From: Streptomyces qinzhouensis
GTDB lineage: Bacteria > Actinomycetota > Actinomycetes > Streptomycetales > Streptomycetaceae
Reading direction: 5' to 3'
Assembly: GCF_007856155.1 (NCBI RefSeq)
Contig: NZ_CP042266.1
Location: forward strand, 6,138,001 to 6,202,000
DNA length: 64,000 nucleotides
Part shown: positions 34,597-42,058 of the stretch, piece by piece
Position numbering within the stretch: position 1 is the stretch's first letter
How the letters are laid out: each line of letters opens with the position of its first letter
Program-made: the position numbers and the translations under genes
Notes under the pieces: generated by a model
Database searches by the model: none
Told to the model about the DNA's origin: nothing
The model's input: only the letters and a program-made list of their open reading frames with translations

Positions 34597-34613
34597 CGCT
34601 CTCCGTGATCGGG

Positions 34614-34668
34614 TTGACAGTGTCGATGGAAACCCTGTATCGCTTATACCTGAGTTTACGGCGTATAC
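34614..34668 (+). promoter_or_regulatory. Promoter and operator-like region of the ABC ATPase gene
   Basis: TTGACA (34614-34619), 16 bases, TGTATC (34636-34641) is a plausible promoter in a clearly AT-rich 110-base divergent region. TATAC (34645-34649) and GTATA (34663-34667) form an inverted repeat directly downstream, suited to block transcription. The divergent TetR is the likely binder. Confidence 0.5.
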
Positions 34669-34706
34669 GGTTTCTGATTTCTGATGCACGGGGGAGTTGT
34701 GTCGGC

Positions 34707-35639
34707 ATGGCCGTCAGTTATGCGATCGAAGTGAAGGGGCTGCGCAAGTCGTTCGGCGCCGCGCGGGTGCCGGCCTCGGTCGACCTGCGCGTCGAGCGCG
34801 GGACGATGCTTGCGCTGCTCGGGCCCAACGGCGCCGGAAAGACCACCACGGTGCGGATCCTCACCACCCTGCTGGCGGCCGACGGCGGTACGGCGCTGGT
34901 GGCGGGCCATGACGTCGCCCGCGATCCGCGGGCCGTCCGCCGGGTGATCGGACTCACCGGTCAGGCCACCGCCGTGGACGAACTCCTCACCGGCGAGGAG
35001 AACCTGGAGATGATGGCGAGGCTGTTCGGCCTCCGCGCCCCGGCCGCCCGCCGCCGCGGGGCCGAACTGCCGGCGGAGTTCGGTCTGCGACCGGCCGCCC
35101 GGCGGCCCGTCAGGACGTACTCGGGTGGGCAGCGCCGCCGCCTCGACCTGGCGATCAGCCTGATCAGCCGACCGTCGGTGCTCTTCCTCGACGAGCCGAC
35201 CACCGGTCTCGACCCCACCAGCCGGGCGGGGATGTGGGAGACCATCCGCGGACTGCTGGCCGCCGGTACGACCGTCCTGCTGACCACCCAGTATCTGGAG
35301 GAGGCCGATCAACTGGCGCACCGGATCGCGGTGATCGACGGTGGCCGGGTGGTCGCCGAGGGTACCGCGGCCCAGCTGAAGAGCCGGATCGGCGCCGAGC
35401 GCGTGGAACTGTCCTTCGCCGCCGCCGATCTGCCCCTGGCCCGCCGGCTCTTTCCGGGCGACTGGCGGGACGGGGACCGGCTCAGCGTCCCGGTCGACGG
35501 TGCCGCGGATGTCCGCCGGCTGCTCAACCGGGCGGCGGAGAACGGCGCCGAGGTCGTCGCCATGGACCTGCACCGGCCGAGCCTCGACGACGTCTTCGCC
35601 GAACTGACCGGCGCGGGTGTTCAGGGGGTGCGGTCATGA
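34707..35639 (+). CDS. DrrA-type ABC transporter ATP-binding protein
   Basis: 310 aa from ATG 34707. Walker A GPNGAGKTTT, signature YSGGQRRRLDLA, Walker B VLFLDEPTTGLDP, and the daunorubicin-resistance ATP-binding C-terminal domain ending SLDDVFAELTG. It would drive an ABC-2 type exporter. The expected DrrB-like permease overlaps its stop (ATGA at 35636) but is broken, so this ATPase has no partner here and is probably non-functional as a transporter unless it pairs with a permease elsewhere. Confidence 0.92.
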   Translation: MAVSYAIEVKGLRKSFGAARVPASVDLRVERGTMLALLGPNGAGKTTTVRILTTLLAADGGTALVAGHDVARDPRAVRRVIGLTGQATAVDELLTGEENLEMMARLFGLRAPAARRRGAELPAEFGLRPAARRPVRTYSGGQRRRLDLAISLISRPSVLFLDEPTTGLDPTSRAGMWETIRGLLAAGTTVLLTTQYLEEADQLAHRIAVIDGGRVVAEGTAAQLKSRIGAERVELSFAAADLPLARRLFPGDWRDGDRLSVPVDGAADVRRLLNRAAENGAEVVAMDLHRPSLDDVFAELTGAGVQGVRS

Positions 35640-36649: not shown

Positions 36650-37471
36650 TCAGTCGCCCACTCCCGCTCCGGCTCCCGCTCCGGCGCCGGGTCCGCGTGC
36701 CCCTTCCGTGCCCGCCCGGGAAGTGGACGTTGACGCTGACGTTGAGGTGGCAGCGGACGTGGCCGGGGACGTGCCCGTCGCGGGCGCGATGTCGTTCCGG
36801 CCCTCCACCACGACCGCCGACTCCAGCGGCGAGGCGATCTCCTGGGTCGTGCTGCGGGACGCCCAGTCACGGATACCGATGACGACCATGACGAAGAAGA
36901 TCGCGTAGACGATTCCGGAGAAGTACAGCTCGGAGTGGATGGCCAGGGGCACCCCGACGAGGTCGACGGCCAGCCAGGCGAACCAGAACTCCACGTACCG
37001 CCGGGCCTGGGAGTACATCGCCAGGATGGAGCCGACGAAGATCCACGCGTCGGCGAGGATCATCCACGTGGGGGCGCCCGGGTAGAACGACGCGTCGGTC
37101 GCCTTGAGCAGGGAGGCGAACGCGAAGGTTCCGACGACCATGGCGACGAGGAGCACGACGCGCTCCCGCCACGACGCCCAGCGGACGTTGATCGCGCCTT
37201 CCTTCTCCCGGCTGCGACGCCATGTCGCCCAGCCCCAAGTGGCCGATGCTATGATCACAATCTGCCGGGCGGCGTTGCCTCCGAGGTCCACATTGAGGCT
37301 CGCGATCAGCAGCAGCACCGATCCGAGGATCTGCACCGGCCAGGCGATGAGCAGCCGCCGCAGCGCCAGCATCACCGTCGCGAGCGCCAGGATGTTGCCG
37401 AGGAAGTCGGACCAGTAGACGGGCAGACCGAAGAAGCTGAACTGCTCGTTCAGCCACTCAAATGCGCTCAT
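36650..37471 (-). CDS. PnuC/RibM-type vitamin transporter, probably for riboflavin
   Basis: 273 aa starting MSAFEWLNEQFSFFGLPVYW. PnuC fold with about 7 membrane segments, e.g. SDFLGNILALATVMLALRR, and the WATWRRSREKEGA loop. PnuC proteins carry nicotinamide riboside; the actinobacterial branch RibM carries riboflavin. The neighbours handle riboflavin, so uptake of riboflavin followed by trapping through phosphorylation is the likely role. I see no FMN riboswitch in the 120 bases upstream, unlike biosynthetic ribM genes. The final 40 residues are a Ser/Thr/Ala/Gly low-complexity tail. Confidence 0.8.
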   Translation of the reverse strand: MSAFEWLNEQFSFFGLPVYWSDFLGNILALATVMLALRRLLIAWPVQILGSVLLLIASLNVDLGGNAARQIVIIASATWGWATWRRSREKEGAINVRWASWRERVVLLVAMVVGTFAFASLLKATDASFYPGAPTWMILADAWIFVGSILAMYSQARRYVEFWFAWLAVDLVGVPLAIHSELYFSGIVYAIFFVMVVIGIRDWASRSTTQEIASPLESAVVVEGRNDIAPATGTSPATSAATSTSASTSTSRAGTEGARGPGAGAGAGAGVGD

Positions 37472-37591
37472 AACTCACACCTTTGTTCGTTCGGAGCAAT
37501 GCTGGTGTGGGGGGCGTCGGCCCGGGCCGGGCCGGTCATGGCCGCAGGGAGGCCGGCAGCGCTTGCCGGACCCGTGCGGGGAAGCGGTGCC

Positions 37592-38050
37592 TCAGACGGA
37601 GGCGGGTTTCCGATGGGCGGCGAGTGCGCCGCCGAGGACACGGCGCCCGTGGCCGGAGGCGAGAAGAGCCTCCGACCGCAGGACGTCCCGCCGGGCGGCA
37701 CGTACCAGATCGCCGGACGACGCGAACTTCACCGTGTCCCGGATCCGGGCCACGAACCACAGTCCGACGCGCTCTCCGTAGAACTCGTCCGACGTGTCGT
37801 GGCAGTACACCTCGACATGGACCTCCGCCGTATCGCAGAAGGTGGGATTCGACCCGATACTGATCGTTCCGCGGTGGACGACGCCGGTCGAATGGCGTAC
37901 GACCCAGCCGCTGTAGATCGCGGGCGGCGGGATCCGCGAGCCGGGATCGGCCGCGATGTTCGCGGTGGGGAACCCGAGCCCACGGCCCCGGCCGGCCCCG
38001 CGCACCACCGCACCCGTGAGGTGCGCGGGAACGGTCGGGGTGTCAGCCAT
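37592..38050 (-). CDS. rcaA: Stand-alone riboflavin kinase
   Basis: 152 aa from ATG at 38050-38048, overlapping the end of the flavin reductase gene by 8 bases. Only the flavokinase half of RibF: the GRGLGFPTANIA nucleotide/flavin motif, then the TISIGSNPTF segment and EVYCHDTSDEFYGERV. There is no FAD synthetase domain, so it makes FMN from riboflavin but not FAD. This matches RcaA of the Microbacterium riboflavin catabolic cluster, where phosphorylation traps and supplies FMN for the monooxygenase. The housekeeping bifunctional ribF should be elsewhere. Confidence 0.85.
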   Translation of the reverse strand: MADTPTVPAHLTGAVVRGAGRGRGLGFPTANIAADPGSRIPPPAIYSGWVVRHSTGVVHRGTISIGSNPTFCDTAEVHVEVYCHDTSDEFYGERVGLWFVARIRDTVKFASSGDLVRAARRDVLRSEALLASGHGRRVLGGALAAHRKPASV

Positions 38051-38603
38051 GGGGGATGAGCTCACGGAACTGGCTGGTGTGGAAGACGAGCGGCTCCACA
38101 CCGGAGAACAATTCGGCTGTCAGCAGCTCCATGAGCACGATCTCGTGATCGCCGCCGTCGTAGACCGCGTTCACCCGGGCCGTCAGCCAGAGCGCGGCGT
38201 CCTCGATCAGCACGGCGCCCTCGGCCGTCGGCTGCCACGAGACGCCGTCGAAGCGGTTGCCGTCCCGGGACGCCAGCCGCCGGCACAGGGCGCCCTGACC
38301 GTGGCTGAGCACACTCAGCCCCAGTACGGACGCCTCCGCGAGGAGCGGCCAGGTGGTCGACGTACGGGCCACGCTGACCGCGGCCATGGGCGGTTGCAGC
38401 GAGATCGACACGAACGAGCTGGCCGCGAACCCGACCGGCTCGTTCCCGCGCAGCGCGCTGATCGCGACGACACCGGTCGGGTAGGCCCCGAACGCCTGTC
38501 GCAGCGTCCCCGCGTCCAACTCCGCCGGAGCCGGAGCCGGAGCCGGTGCCCATGCCGGTGCCCCGGGCGGGTGCTGGGCCGACGTGGCCATGGTCTTCAC
38601 CAT
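38043..38603 (-). CDS. rcaB: Flavin reductase (NADH:flavin oxidoreductase)
   Basis: 186 aa from ATG at 38603-38601, with an AGGAGAGG ribosome site; an ATG 12 bases in is possible. Flavin-reductase-like FMN-binding fold: LRQAFGAYPTGVVAISAL, PVGFAASSFVSISLQPPMAAVSV, and the C-terminal DHEIVLMELLTAE. The N-terminus has a Pro/Ala repeat. It supplies reduced flavin to the adjacent LLM monooxygenase, as RcaB does. 22 bases from the upstream gene in the operon. Confidence 0.87.
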   Translation of the reverse strand: MVKTMATSAQHPPGAPAWAPAPAPAPAELDAGTLRQAFGAYPTGVVAISALRGNEPVGFAASSFVSISLQPPMAAVSVARTSTTWPLLAEASVLGLSVLSHGQGALCRRLASRDGNRFDGVSWQPTAEGAVLIEDAALWLTARVNAVYDGGDHEIVLMELLTAELFSGVEPLVFHTSQFRELIPHG

Positions 38604-38625
38604 CCTCTCCTCGCGCGTTCCGTAC

Positions 38626-39972
38626 TCAGTGCCTGAACCGTGCCGCGGGGTGGCTGTCCGGCAGCGCGCCGTCGGACGCCCCGGTGAGGCGCTCCCGCAG
38701 GCTCTCGCCCTCCGTGTACTCGCCGCGGAAGACTCCACGCTCCCGCAGGATCGGCAGGACCGACTCGACGAACTCCGTTGTCGAGGCGGGCTGGACCGTC
38801 GGGGACAGCAGGAATCCGTCGAGGTCGGCGCCGTCCGCGAGCGCGCAGATCTCATCGGCGATCTCCTCCGCCGTACCGACGACGGGCCGCGCTCCGACAC
38901 CGTGGGTGTGCCAGTCGGCGAGGACATCACCGACCGTCTTGTCCGCGAAACGGGCCACCTGGGTCTGCGACAGCTCGGTCGAGAGCTCCGCCATGGGCGT
39001 CTCGGGCGCGTAGGACGACAGGTCGAGCCCGGTGAACATGGCGTAGCTGGCGACGGTCACCTCGGGGCGCTGGGCGTCCAGGATCCGCTGGTAGCGCCGC
39101 TCCGCGTCCTGGGTCGTCGCACCGATGACACAGGAGAACGCCGACATCACCTTCACATCGTCGGCCCGGCGGCCCGCCTTGACCGCCTCCTCACGGATCG
39201 AGGAGGTGTGCCCGGCGAGCTGGGCGATCGAGCCGCTGCCCACGAACATGCATTCGCCGTGCCGGCCGCCGACCCGCCGTCCGGCGGGCGACGCCCCGGC
39301 CTGGAACAGGACCGGCGTGCCCTGCGGGGAGCGCGCGGTGTTGCCGTACCCCTCCGAGCGGAAGAACGGACCCTTGTGGCTGACGAGGTGCACCTTGGCG
39401 GGGTCGGCGAACCGCCCCTCCTTGTCCTTCTCCAGCGCGTCCGGCTCCCAGGCGCCCTCCCAGTACTTGTAGACGAGCTCCAGGAAGTCCTCGGCCATCC
39501 GGTAGCGGTCGTCGTGCGCCACCATGTCCATGCCGAAGGCCTTGACCGCGGTGTCCGCCGTACCGGTCGTCACGATGTTCCAGCCGATCCGGCCGCCGGA
39601 GAGCTGGTCGAGCGTGGCGAGACGGCGCGCGAAGGCGTACGGGGGCTCCACGAGGACCGAACCGGTCATGACGAGACCGAGGTTGGTCGTCGTGGAGAGC
39701 AGCGCGGAGGCCACGACTATCGGGTCGAGCCGCGGGAGGTCGAGGGTCTCCTCCGTGGCGATGGCCGGGCGGGTGCCGTCGATCTCCGACCAGCCCCAGG
39801 CATCGGCGAGGAAGAGGAAGTCCAGCTTGGCGTCCTCGCAGACGGCGGCGAGGTCGCGCCAGTACTCGAGGGTGTCGAAGAGGTGCCGCCGGCTGTCGGG
39901 GTGCCGCCAGGTGGCGGTGCCGCTCGCATTGGTCTGCGCGTTCTCGAAAACGCCGATCTTGAGGTTCCGCAT
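38626..39972 (-). CDS. rcaE: Riboflavin lyase-like FMNH2-dependent monooxygenase
   Basis: 448 aa from ATG at 39972-39970 (MRNLKIGVFENAQTNASG). NtaA/SnaA/DszA subgroup of luciferase-like monooxygenases: DFLFLADAWGWSEIDG, LDQLSGGRIGWNIVTTG, and RYRMAEDFLELVYKYWEG. The combination with flavin kinase, flavin reductase and ribokinase matches RcaE, which uses reduced FMN and oxygen to release lumichrome and ribose from riboflavin. Assignment rests on context and family, since the same fold oxidises other substrates such as EDTA, nitrilotriacetate or dibenzothiophene sulfone. Confidence 0.8.
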   Translation of the reverse strand: MRNLKIGVFENAQTNASGTATWRHPDSRRHLFDTLEYWRDLAAVCEDAKLDFLFLADAWGWSEIDGTRPAIATEETLDLPRLDPIVVASALLSTTTNLGLVMTGSVLVEPPYAFARRLATLDQLSGGRIGWNIVTTGTADTAVKAFGMDMVAHDDRYRMAEDFLELVYKYWEGAWEPDALEKDKEGRFADPAKVHLVSHKGPFFRSEGYGNTARSPQGTPVLFQAGASPAGRRVGGRHGECMFVGSGSIAQLAGHTSSIREEAVKAGRRADDVKVMSAFSCVIGATTQDAERRYQRILDAQRPEVTVASYAMFTGLDLSSYAPETPMAELSTELSQTQVARFADKTVGDVLADWHTHGVGARPVVGTAEEIADEICALADGADLDGFLLSPTVQPASTTEFVESVLPILRERGVFRGEYTEGESLRERLTGASDGALPDSHPAARFRH

Positions 39973-40012
39973 GGGTGGTTCTCCGTAGTGCTGGTGGGTG
40001 ACCCGTGGGGTG

Positions 40013-40942
40013 TCAGAGAGCAGAGGTGGCAGCGGCGACCGTGGGCGGGTCGAGCTGTGCCGCGTACGGCATGGAGGTCTGGGCGCCGAGGCCGGTGGCG
40101 GCATACGACGCCGCGTGTACGGCGCGCTCGACCGCGGCCCGCAGTCCGGTGCCGCGTCCGAGGGCGTCCGCGAGGGCGCCGCAGAAGGTGTCCCCGGCCC
40201 CCACGGTGTCGACGGCGTCGACGACCGGCGCGGGGATGTGGACGGTGTCCGGGCTGTGCGCCTCCTTCAGTACGGCTCCGTCCGCGCCGAGCGTGACCAC
40301 GACGGCGCGGCACGGGAGCGCGGCGCGTACCAGCAGGTCCCGGGCTTCGTCGACGGTCGCGGGCGGCTCGGTCCCGAGCAGCGAGGCCAGCTCGCCGCGG
40401 TTGGGGACGAGGATGTCGACGGCGGCCAGGACCTCCGCGTCGACCGGCCGGGCGGGGGCGGGGTTGAGGACGACGACCCCGCCCTGCTCCCGGGCGCGCA
40501 GCACCGCCAGCGCGACCACCTCGGGCGCGATCTCGTTCTGGACGAGAACGATCTCTCCGGCCTCCCGGACGAGTCGGCCCGGCAGGTCCTGGACGCCGAG
40601 TTCGGCGTTGGCCCCCGGATTCACGACGATGGTGTTCTCGCCGGCGTCGTCGACGACCACCGCGGCGATTCCGGTCGTGACCCGCTCGTCCGGCCGCACG
40701 GCGTCGACGTCCACGCCTTCGGCCGTGAGCACCTCGAGGATGGCGGCCGCGTCCGCGCCGACCCTGGCGATCAGACGTACCGGCGAGCCGAGGCGGGCGG
40801 CGGCGACGGCCTGGTTGGCGCCCTTGCCGCCGACGCCCTCCACGAAGCGCCGTGCGAGCACGGTCTCACCGGGGTGCGGCAGGTCTTCGACGGTCAGGAC
40901 GAAGTCGCGGTTCACCGAACCGACGACGGTGATGGGCGACAT
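40013..40942 (-). CDS. rcaD: Ribokinase, first gene of the riboflavin operon
   Basis: 309 aa starting MSPITVVGSVNRDFVLTVED. PfkB family: N-terminal GGKGANQAVAAARLG and C-terminal DTVGAGDTFCGAL with the catalytic Asp of GAGD. Phosphorylates ribose to ribose 5-phosphate. No ribose ABC importer or rbsD is present, so the ribose is presumably produced inside the cell by cleavage of riboflavin. 40 bases before the monooxygenase gene. Confidence 0.92.
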   Translation of the reverse strand: MSPITVVGSVNRDFVLTVEDLPHPGETVLARRFVEGVGGKGANQAVAAARLGSPVRLIARVGADAAAILEVLTAEGVDVDAVRPDERVTTGIAAVVVDDAGENTIVVNPGANAELGVQDLPGRLVREAGEIVLVQNEIAPEVVALAVLRAREQGGVVVLNPAPARPVDAEVLAAVDILVPNRGELASLLGTEPPATVDEARDLLVRAALPCRAVVVTLGADGAVLKEAHSPDTVHIPAPVVDAVDTVGAGDTFCGALADALGRGTGLRAAVERAVHAASYAATGLGAQTSMPYAAQLDPPTVAAATSAL

Positions 40943-40954
40943 TTGGACTCCTTG

Positions 40955-40968
40955 GGAGATCGATTTCC
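40955..40968. promoter_or_regulatory. LacI-type operator in front of the riboflavin operon
   Basis: GGAGATCGATTTCC, a 14-bp palindrome centred on ATCGAT with one mismatched pair, the AANCGNTT-like centre typical of LacI-family operators. It is 12 bases upstream of the ribokinase start, in the 129-base region shared with the divergent LacI gene. Confidence 0.6.
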
Positions 40969-41071
40969 GACATGCTGTACCAGGGTTCCCGTGCCGTCAA
41001 GTAGCCTCGTGCTTCCTGATCGCCCCGCCGCCGTGGCGCATCCCCGTCCATCGACCGAGAAGGATCTCCAC

Positions 41072-42058
41072 GTGACAGCGCCCCGACTCATCGACGTGGC
41101 CGAGGCCGCAGGCGTCTCCCGCGCCACGGCGTCACGCGTGCTCGCCGGCACGCCGCGCAACGTCGACCCGGAGCTCGCGCGCCGCGTCGAACAGGCCGCG
41201 GACCGGCTCGGTTACCAGCCCAACCATTCGGCCCGGGCGCTGCGCACCGGCGAGACCGGCACCATCGGGGTCGTGGTCCCCACGCTCGCCAACCCGTATT
41301 TCGTCCAACTCGCCGATGCCATCGCACAACAGGTGCGGGCCGCCGGTGGCACGCTCGTGGTCACCGACGCGGCGAACGACACCGCCATCGAGGCCGAGCA
41401 GATCGACACCCTGCTCAGCGGCCGGGTGGACGGCCTGTTCGTCGTTCCCGTCTCGGCCGACGCTTCCGGACCCGCGATCCGCGAGGCCGCGGGCCGCCGT
41501 CCCGTCGTTCTCTTCGACCGGTGGGCCAAGGGATCCGGCACCGTGGCCGTCACGCTCGACAACGCGTCCGCGGTCCGGCTTCTCGTCGAGCATCTGGAGG
41601 GCATCGGGAGGCACCGGATCGCGCTCGTCGCCGACCAGGCCTCCTCCTCGGGTGCCGAACGGGTGGCCGCCTTCGCCGAGACCCAAGGACCCGACGCCAC
41701 CACCATCCTGCTGCCCGGCTTCAGCACCGACGGCGGACGGACGGCGGCGCGCCGGATCATCGAACAGCGCGACCGGGTCGACGCGGTCGTCTGCGGGGCG
41801 GACGTCCTCGCCGTGGGGCTGGTGAGCGCGCTGCACCGGTCATCGGTGGCCGTCCCCCGGCAGATCGCCGTCACCGGCTTCGACGACACCGAGATGCTCA
41901 AGTTCCTCGACCCGCCCATCACTTCCATCCGCCACCCGCTGTCCGCCATGGCCGAACGCGGTCTGACGCTGCTTCAGGCGCCGGGCCGCGAACGGGCCGA
42001 GCGGGTCGAGCGGTTCCCGCCGCGGCTCGTCGTCCGGGCCTCGACCGACGAATCCTGA
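41072..42058 (+). CDS. LacI-family transcriptional regulator
   Basis: 328 aa from GTG 41072 with AAGGA upstream. HTH RLIDVAEAAGVSRATASRVL followed by the hinge helix region GYQPNHSARALRTG, then a periplasmic-binding-protein-like ligand domain (GVVVPTLANPYFVQLADAI ... GFDDTEMLKFLDPPITSIRH). Divergent from ribokinase, so it likely represses the riboflavin genes; ribose, ribose phosphate or a flavin product could be the inducer. Confidence 0.92.
   Translation: MTAPRLIDVAEAAGVSRATASRVLAGTPRNVDPELARRVEQAADRLGYQPNHSARALRTGETGTIGVVVPTLANPYFVQLADAIAQQVRAAGGTLVVTDAANDTAIEAEQIDTLLSGRVDGLFVVPVSADASGPAIREAAGRRPVVLFDRWAKGSGTVAVTLDNASAVRLLVEHLEGIGRHRIALVADQASSSGAERVAAFAETQGPDATTILLPGFSTDGGRTAARRIIEQRDRVDAVVCGADVLAVGLVSALHRSSVAVPRQIAVTGFDDTEMLKFLDPPITSIRHPLSAMAERGLTLLQAPGRERAERVERFPPRLVVRASTDES

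Follow-up and report, generated by a model that had tools for sequence, protein, structure and literature searches.

A predicted LacI-controlled operon for riboflavin catabolism in Streptomyces qinzhouensis

Introduction

What does Streptomyces qinzhouensis gain from a gene set in which a ribokinase, a monooxygenase, a flavin reductase, a stand-alone riboflavin kinase (flavokinase) and a PnuC-type transporter are lined up behind a divergent lacI gene? We analysed this locus in a stretch of 64,000 nucleotides (contig NZ_CP042266.1 of assembly GCF_007856155.1, forward-strand positions 6,138,001 to 6,202,000), here called the window, which a preliminary description had assigned to a Streptomyces-like genome on sequence alone; the three best protein matches are indeed from Streptomyces. 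Our analysis argues, with a probability of roughly 0.86, for a LacI-controlled operon that would import riboflavin, cleave it to lumichrome and ribose and use the ribose. The cleavage reaction is that of RcaE, which removes the ribityl chain oxidatively and so yields these two products (PMC12746152, in the passages available). Among the matches listed for published titles and abstracts on riboflavin catabolism, RcaE and lumichrome, the operon is not described, the rca papers of 2016 and 2018 lying outside the scope of that search.

Results

Identity of the monooxygenase

Compared with proteins of solved structure, the monooxygenase scored 703.5 bits against PDB entry 5w48, named 'Riboflavin Lyase' and which we take to be RcaE, over residues 2-448, followed by dimethyl-sulfide monooxygenase with 307.8 bits and ethylenediaminetetraacetate (EDTA) monooxygenase with 162.9 bits; NCBIfam assigns the protein to the broad NtaA/DmoA family only. 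GTDB species genomes were scanned with the same protein, and our locus counts rest on the best 80 loci: identity to the window monooxygenase is 56-93% in 62 of these, after which there is a gap down to 38% or less, and the 18 loci below this gap, lying outside the RcaE clade, do not enter the architecture counts. A tree of 66 proteins set four outgroup rows against 62 RcaE rows, one for the window and 61 for other loci, the fragment L065 being left out. The branch separating the two sets has a support of 89/99, just below the level that the program marks with a star, whilst the 15 rows from Streptomyces, Kitasatospora and Catenulispora, including the window, form one clade with a support of 100/100. 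Devosia riboflavina IFO13584 falls inside the RcaE group of the tree, as do the Microbacterium proteins. The enzyme is hence found with riboflavin lyase and not with the EDTA- or sulfonate-type enzymes that the preliminary description had named as the outcome speaking against it, the tree agreeing with the bit scores; its proposal of riboflavin catabolism is supported by both. On its sequence, the monooxygenase is RcaE, a riboflavin lyase.

The host genome (one contig of 8.15 Mb) encodes a single copy of the monooxygenase, the sole other match being weak (29%). The gene was found in 1 of 392 genomes of a genus sample (the host only), in 1 of 394 genomes of a class sample and in 6 of 100 relatives, these being the host and five members of a single further genus from its order. 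A role of the monooxygenase in anti-phage defence was rejected, there being no PADLOC match.

Two architectures around one enzyme core

The window and the 62 named loci were compared by tblastn at 1e-10 using in-frame queries, and two architectures can be distinguished. Architecture A comprises Streptomyces, Kitasatospora and Catenulispora (14 loci and the window): LacI and ribokinase are present in all 15, reductase and flavokinase in 14 each and the PnuC-type transporter in 13, with no match by tblastn to an ABC (ATP-binding cassette) binding protein, an ABC permease or PadR in any of them. A weak ABC-ATPase match (32-37%) occurs in three loci including the window, in each case without binding protein or permease. 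All six genes are present in 12 of the 14 other loci; in one of the remainder (L017) the contig ends before the transporter, and in both Catenulispora loci the reductase stands last. Such recurrence of the gene set in 14 other loci is far beyond chance.

Architecture B covers 46 loci from Microbacterium, Agromyces, Leifsonia, Salinibacterium, Ruicaihuangia, the marine actinobacterium PHSC20C1, Nocardioides astragali, Devosia and Maritalea, Microbacterium maritypicum itself being absent from the compared loci. ABC binding protein, ATPase and permease are present in all 46 and PadR in 45 (the exception, L065, is a short fragment); the importer genes lie upstream and the padR gene on the opposite strand. 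Pfam searches with one example of each protein returned NMT1/THI5-like, ABC_tran, BPD_transp_1 and PadR. The reductase was found in 45 loci, the flavokinase in 43 or 44 depending on the query and the ribokinase in 29, whilst the PnuC-type transporter was matched by tblastn in 0 of 46 and LacI in only two (L044 and L053), both times far from rcaE. Absence of a ribokinase match from 17 of the 46 B stretches (four of them short or cut; examples are L021, L043 and L053) compares with 0 of 15 in architecture A, where the ribokinase is invariably the first gene behind a conserved palindrome described below. Two loci of Microbacterium esteraromaticum carry flavokinase and reductase upstream on the opposite strand (L024, 3096-4033; L068, 3105-4033).

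The preliminary description had equated the four enzymes of the operon with those characterised in M. maritypicum. As seen through the B loci, the rca clusters of M. maritypicum G10 and Devosia riboflavina have RcaE, flavin reductase, flavokinase and often ribokinase in common with the window; the layout does not carry over, with an NMT1-type ABC importer and PadR in the Microbacterium relatives taking the place that the PnuC/RibM-type transporter and divergent LacI hold in the window. Importer and regulator have thus been exchanged together around an enzyme core that was kept. In the tree the B loci do not form a single clade and the RcaE group has no resolved root, so neither architecture can be called the older.

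The two remaining loci belong to metagenome-assembled genomes of Rhodobacterales and encode RcaE-clade proteins at 56-58% identity (L063, 6989-8368; L064, 2247-3623); no partner genes were found in the stretch covered, which for L064 is only 3.7 kb. Their rcaE neighbours read as sugar-related: an aldolase, an HAD phosphatase and a triose-phosphate isomerase. In the passages available, rca clusters are said to occur only in soil bacteria (PMC12746152), a statement with which these genomes and the 'marine actinobacterium' appear to fit poorly.

Operon organisation in the window

The window holds the rca enzyme set of riboflavin kinase, flavin reductase, ribokinase and RcaE all together. Open reading frames and Pfam/NCBIfam matches bear out the six-gene arrangement at the positions given in the preliminary description (Table 1), with five genes on the minus strand, transcribed in the order ribokinase, monooxygenase, flavin reductase, flavokinase and PnuC-type transporter, and lacI diverging on the plus strand; the flavokinase frame overlaps the reductase stop. 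In line with the preliminary description, we take RcaA to be the kinase, RcaB the reductase and RcaD the ribokinase. The second flavokinase domain of the host genome lies outside the operon, as the C-terminal portion of a frame of 321 residues that we read as RibF-like. Further along the window, positions 34605-35639 read as a drug-export-type ABC ATPase adjoining a TetR-like frame, with no clear partner permease frame rightward.

Table 1. Features of the predicted riboflavin catabolic operon (window coordinates)
Feature	Position	Strand	Support
LacI-family repressor gene, GTG start	41072..42058	+	PF00356 LacI helix-turn-helix and PF13377 sugar-/periplasmic-binding domain, both above cut-off; upstream in 15/15 architecture-A loci
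-35-like element TTGACG, inferred promoter	40995..41000	-	Invariant in 15/15 aligned upstream regions
Operator-like palindrome GGAAATCGATCTCC	40955..40968	-	Between inferred promoter and ribokinase start; single site in window and in genome
PfkB-family ribokinase (RcaD role)	40013..40942	-	PF00294, 204.7 bits; TIGR02152, 283.2 bits (cut-off 299.65)
NtaA/DmoA-family monooxygenase, riboflavin lyase (RcaE) by sequence	about 38626..39972	-	703.5 bits to PDB 5w48; inside RcaE clade
Flavin reductase (RcaB role)	about 38043..38600	-	PF01613, 117 bits; 4ywn NADH-FMN oxidoreductase, 122.4 bits
Stand-alone riboflavin kinase (RcaA role)	about 37592..38050	-	PF01687, 100.4 bits; start chosen from open reading frame
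PnuC/RibM-type transporter, inferred riboflavin importer	36650..37471	-	PF04973, 145.6 bits; low-complexity C-terminal tail

A conserved operator-like palindrome

The 14-base palindrome GGARATCGATYTCC occurs once in each of 20 architecture-A loci (the window, the 14 named loci and five further ones, some of which duplicate named ones) and is absent from all 48 other RcaE-clade loci and all 18 outgroup loci. It was found once in the window and in none of 100 shuffles, and the window site is the only one in the whole host genome, where the 14-base pattern revealed no second operator; a 16-base pattern finds no host match at all, since the window's site deviates at an outer base. In an alignment of 15 promoters, TTGACG does not vary and neither do 12 of the 14 columns of the palindrome, while most of the spacer does; the distance between TTGACG and palindrome is 26 bases in all 15. 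This spacing was read in 18 of the 20 loci, the other two (L003 and L007) lying on the other strand, both with the palindrome. The weight of the operator case comes from this conservation and not from the palindrome alone. In the window the hexamer CAGCAT follows 17 bases behind TTGACG, which by our reading would place the transcription start inside the palindrome; a repressor blocking the start site at this point is the natural reading of the layout.

The LacI protein and its probable ligand

The best NCBIfam match of the LacI protein is RbsR, at 184.8 bits and far under the cut-off of 382, and its best solved structure is likewise a ribose operon repressor, 9ny7. As in an RbsR-type ribose repressor, the regulator is local and divergent, with one operator-like site in the genome. 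When the ribose-contact positions that we presume for RbsB are transferred to LacI, an NPYF stretch, an Asp-Arg pair and a further Arg are found in all 15 proteins and a Phe in 13, 9ny7 having a gap where the Arg that follows the kept Asp would align. Ribose is the likeliest ligand, although two pocket residues differ from 9ny7 and the assignment is for this reason uncertain. There is a small chance that the ribose-type pocket has been reshaped to bind riboflavin by its ribityl chain, or some other flavin-derived ribityl compound; if true, the protein would be a LacI-family flavin sensor that turns on the breakdown of vitamin B2, standing where the other operons have PadR.

The transporter and its relation to RibM

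By our reading the host makes riboflavin itself, from a biosynthesis operon behind a flavin mononucleotide (FMN) riboswitch: its other PF04973 protein (214 residues) sits there among presumed ribD, ribE, ribBA and ribH frames and is, by position, RibM. The window transporter is 46% identical to this protein over a 212-column alignment, a figure that takes the host's own RibM as reference and not the S. davawensis protein on which the published RibM criterion is based (PF04973 and at least 38% identity over 80%; PMC4418817, in the passages available). At a threshold of 1e-45, transporter matches were obtained in 41 of the 296 genomes of a class sample. The best of these apart from the host copy (56%; genome G610, of another family) lies directly behind an FMN riboswitch, and all the rest show 38-49% identity, the ordinary RibM level. 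Neighbourhoods were viewed for G610, G367 and the host. No solved structure was matched by sequence at 1e-3.

Membership of PF04973 is thus common to the window transporter and RibM (PnuX) of Streptomyces and Corynebacterium. The catabolic transporters form a group separate from that of Streptomyces RibM, and the window protein stands in a neighbourhood of riboflavin catabolism and not of riboflavin biosynthesis. Low-complexity sequence of Ala, Ser, Thr and Gly makes up its last ~60 residues, to which nothing in the host RibM corresponds. Rfam searches found no FMN riboswitch in the window, in three A loci (L008, L009 and L019) or in the three B loci scanned; the window in fact contains no Rfam family above threshold, and control of the operon by an FMN riboswitch was rejected on this ground.

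S. davawensis RibM is reported to transport riboflavin and roseoflavin with no need of metabolic energy (PMC3239331), and RibXY, a proposed riboflavin importer, is annotated as COG0600/COG0715 (PMC4418817, in part), the annotation class to which the NMT1-type ABC importer of architecture B also belongs. The position of importer is thus taken by unrelated proteins in A and B, which is good evidence that the PnuC-type protein serves as a riboflavin importer. Since the host appears to make riboflavin under an FMN riboswitch, imported flavin would be surplus and uptake for catabolism would need another control: a catabolic importer would fail under a switch that closes when flavin is plentiful.

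Discussion

Taken as a whole, the locus can be explained as follows. The PnuC/RibM-type facilitator would, judged by its kinship, admit riboflavin; flavokinase would convert it to FMN and the reductase would provide reduced FMN (FMNH2), roles that are transferred from the characterised rca pathway to families assigned by sequence. RcaE, orthologous by sequence and with its chemistry taken from the literature, would then use FMNH2 and O2 to strip the ribityl chain, giving lumichrome as a probable waste product and ribose, which the ribokinase would phosphorylate for central metabolism. LacI would bind the palindrome just behind the promoter and repress the operon until a ribose-like ligand releases it, ribose itself being the likeliest.

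Several observations weigh against this explanation. One Kitasatospora locus (L018) keeps lacI, rbsK and rcaE without reductase, flavokinase or transporter, and in the window ribokinase, reductase and flavokinase all score under the NCBIfam equivalog cut-offs. The ribose operon repressor 9ny7 leads the next structure by only 0.7 bit, and the two pocket positions that differ from it (Asn to Ala and Gln to His) are invariant in all 15 LacI proteins. Closer relatives of the transporter (61-69%) exist outside the cluster, in Microbacteriaceae such as Herbiconiux and in others. A palindrome in a single upstream region is not rare, appearing in 29, 1, 53 and 41 of 300 shuffles for the window, L008, L013 and L019 respectively, and a generic sigma-70 promoter scan returned no site, as did a terminator scan. 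As a separate observation on L018 (8347-8604; Kitasatospora sp. SolWspMP-SS2h), the palindrome is kept there too, and the next large frame reads as beta-ketoacyl synthase-like.

The fate of lumichrome bears on what the operon is for. The known lumichrome route requires a Rieske dioxygenase, and the lum cluster of Nocardioides simplex, which breaks lumichrome down, covers the latter half of the whole pathway (PMC12746152, in the passages available); no such cluster was recognised in the neighbourhood of the operon. In the host genome there is one PF00848 Rieske alpha subunit, and its neighbours (beta subunit, reductase, short-chain dehydrogenase, catechol dioxygenase, CoA-transferase and thiolase) fit benzoate use, so that a lumichrome-degrading Rieske cluster was rejected for the host, the sole PF00848 protein belonging to a benzoate-type set. 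The known route looks absent, in a proxy test that used PF00848 alone among the route markers, and lumichrome is probably left over as waste or released as a signal.

The second of these outcomes leads to a different purpose, in which lumichrome as a signal to plants or other bacteria would be the goal and ribose recovery a by-product. Sinha et al. 2025 raise such a signal, no strain having been found with rcaE beside lumichrome-degrading genes (PMC12746152, in the passages available), and the single Rieske protein of the host, which does not fit lumichrome breakdown, agrees with it. Lumichrome has also been reported from Streptomyces cultures, in two papers whose available passages name no gene. 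A signal is not needed for this last finding, as light also turns riboflavin into lumichrome. With the ribokinase first behind the palindrome in all 15 A loci, and with ribose repressors as the best matches of the regulator, the sugar itself looks to be the goal, and signalling as the purpose appears possible but the less likely by some distance.

That the operon serves to remove roseoflavin or some other toxic analogue of flavin, as the preliminary description had also suggested, is improbable. Known roseoflavin makers are Streptomyces, at least in the passages available, and an enzyme that cleaves ribityl chains could accept the analogue. The operon, however, holds an importer-type protein, and RibM expression raises roseoflavin sensitivity, even if RibM might in principle export roseoflavin (PMC3239331, in part). 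Moreover, the flavokinase would be expected to phosphorylate the analogue, and no efflux gene was recognised in the conserved set by a scan that covered part of the shared families. That the monooxygenase acts on some other substrate of the NtaA/DmoA type, for instance a chelator or a sulfide, with the flavin genes only supplying FMNH2, is likewise improbable: whilst the broad NCBIfam name would allow it and any two-component monooxygenase needs reduced flavin, riboflavin lyase stands ~396 bits above any other solved family, and ribokinase and RibM-type transporter would be left without a use.

Conclusions

Riboflavin catabolism with recovery of ribose remains the preferred explanation of the locus. 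The catabolism of vitamins is poorly charted, and our findings suggest that riboflavin degraders are to be found in Streptomyces, Kitasatospora and Catenulispora. That importer and regulator were both exchanged around one core is evidence from genomes, independent of other lines, for counting uptake and induced control as parts of riboflavin breakdown, and the operon offers a precise, testable operator and promoter. The position of the ribokinase as first gene behind the operator bears on the question of whether lumichrome is waste or signal. Finally, a cell that feeds on a vitamin of its own making needs just such an importer for riboflavin, one outside the control of the FMN riboswitch.

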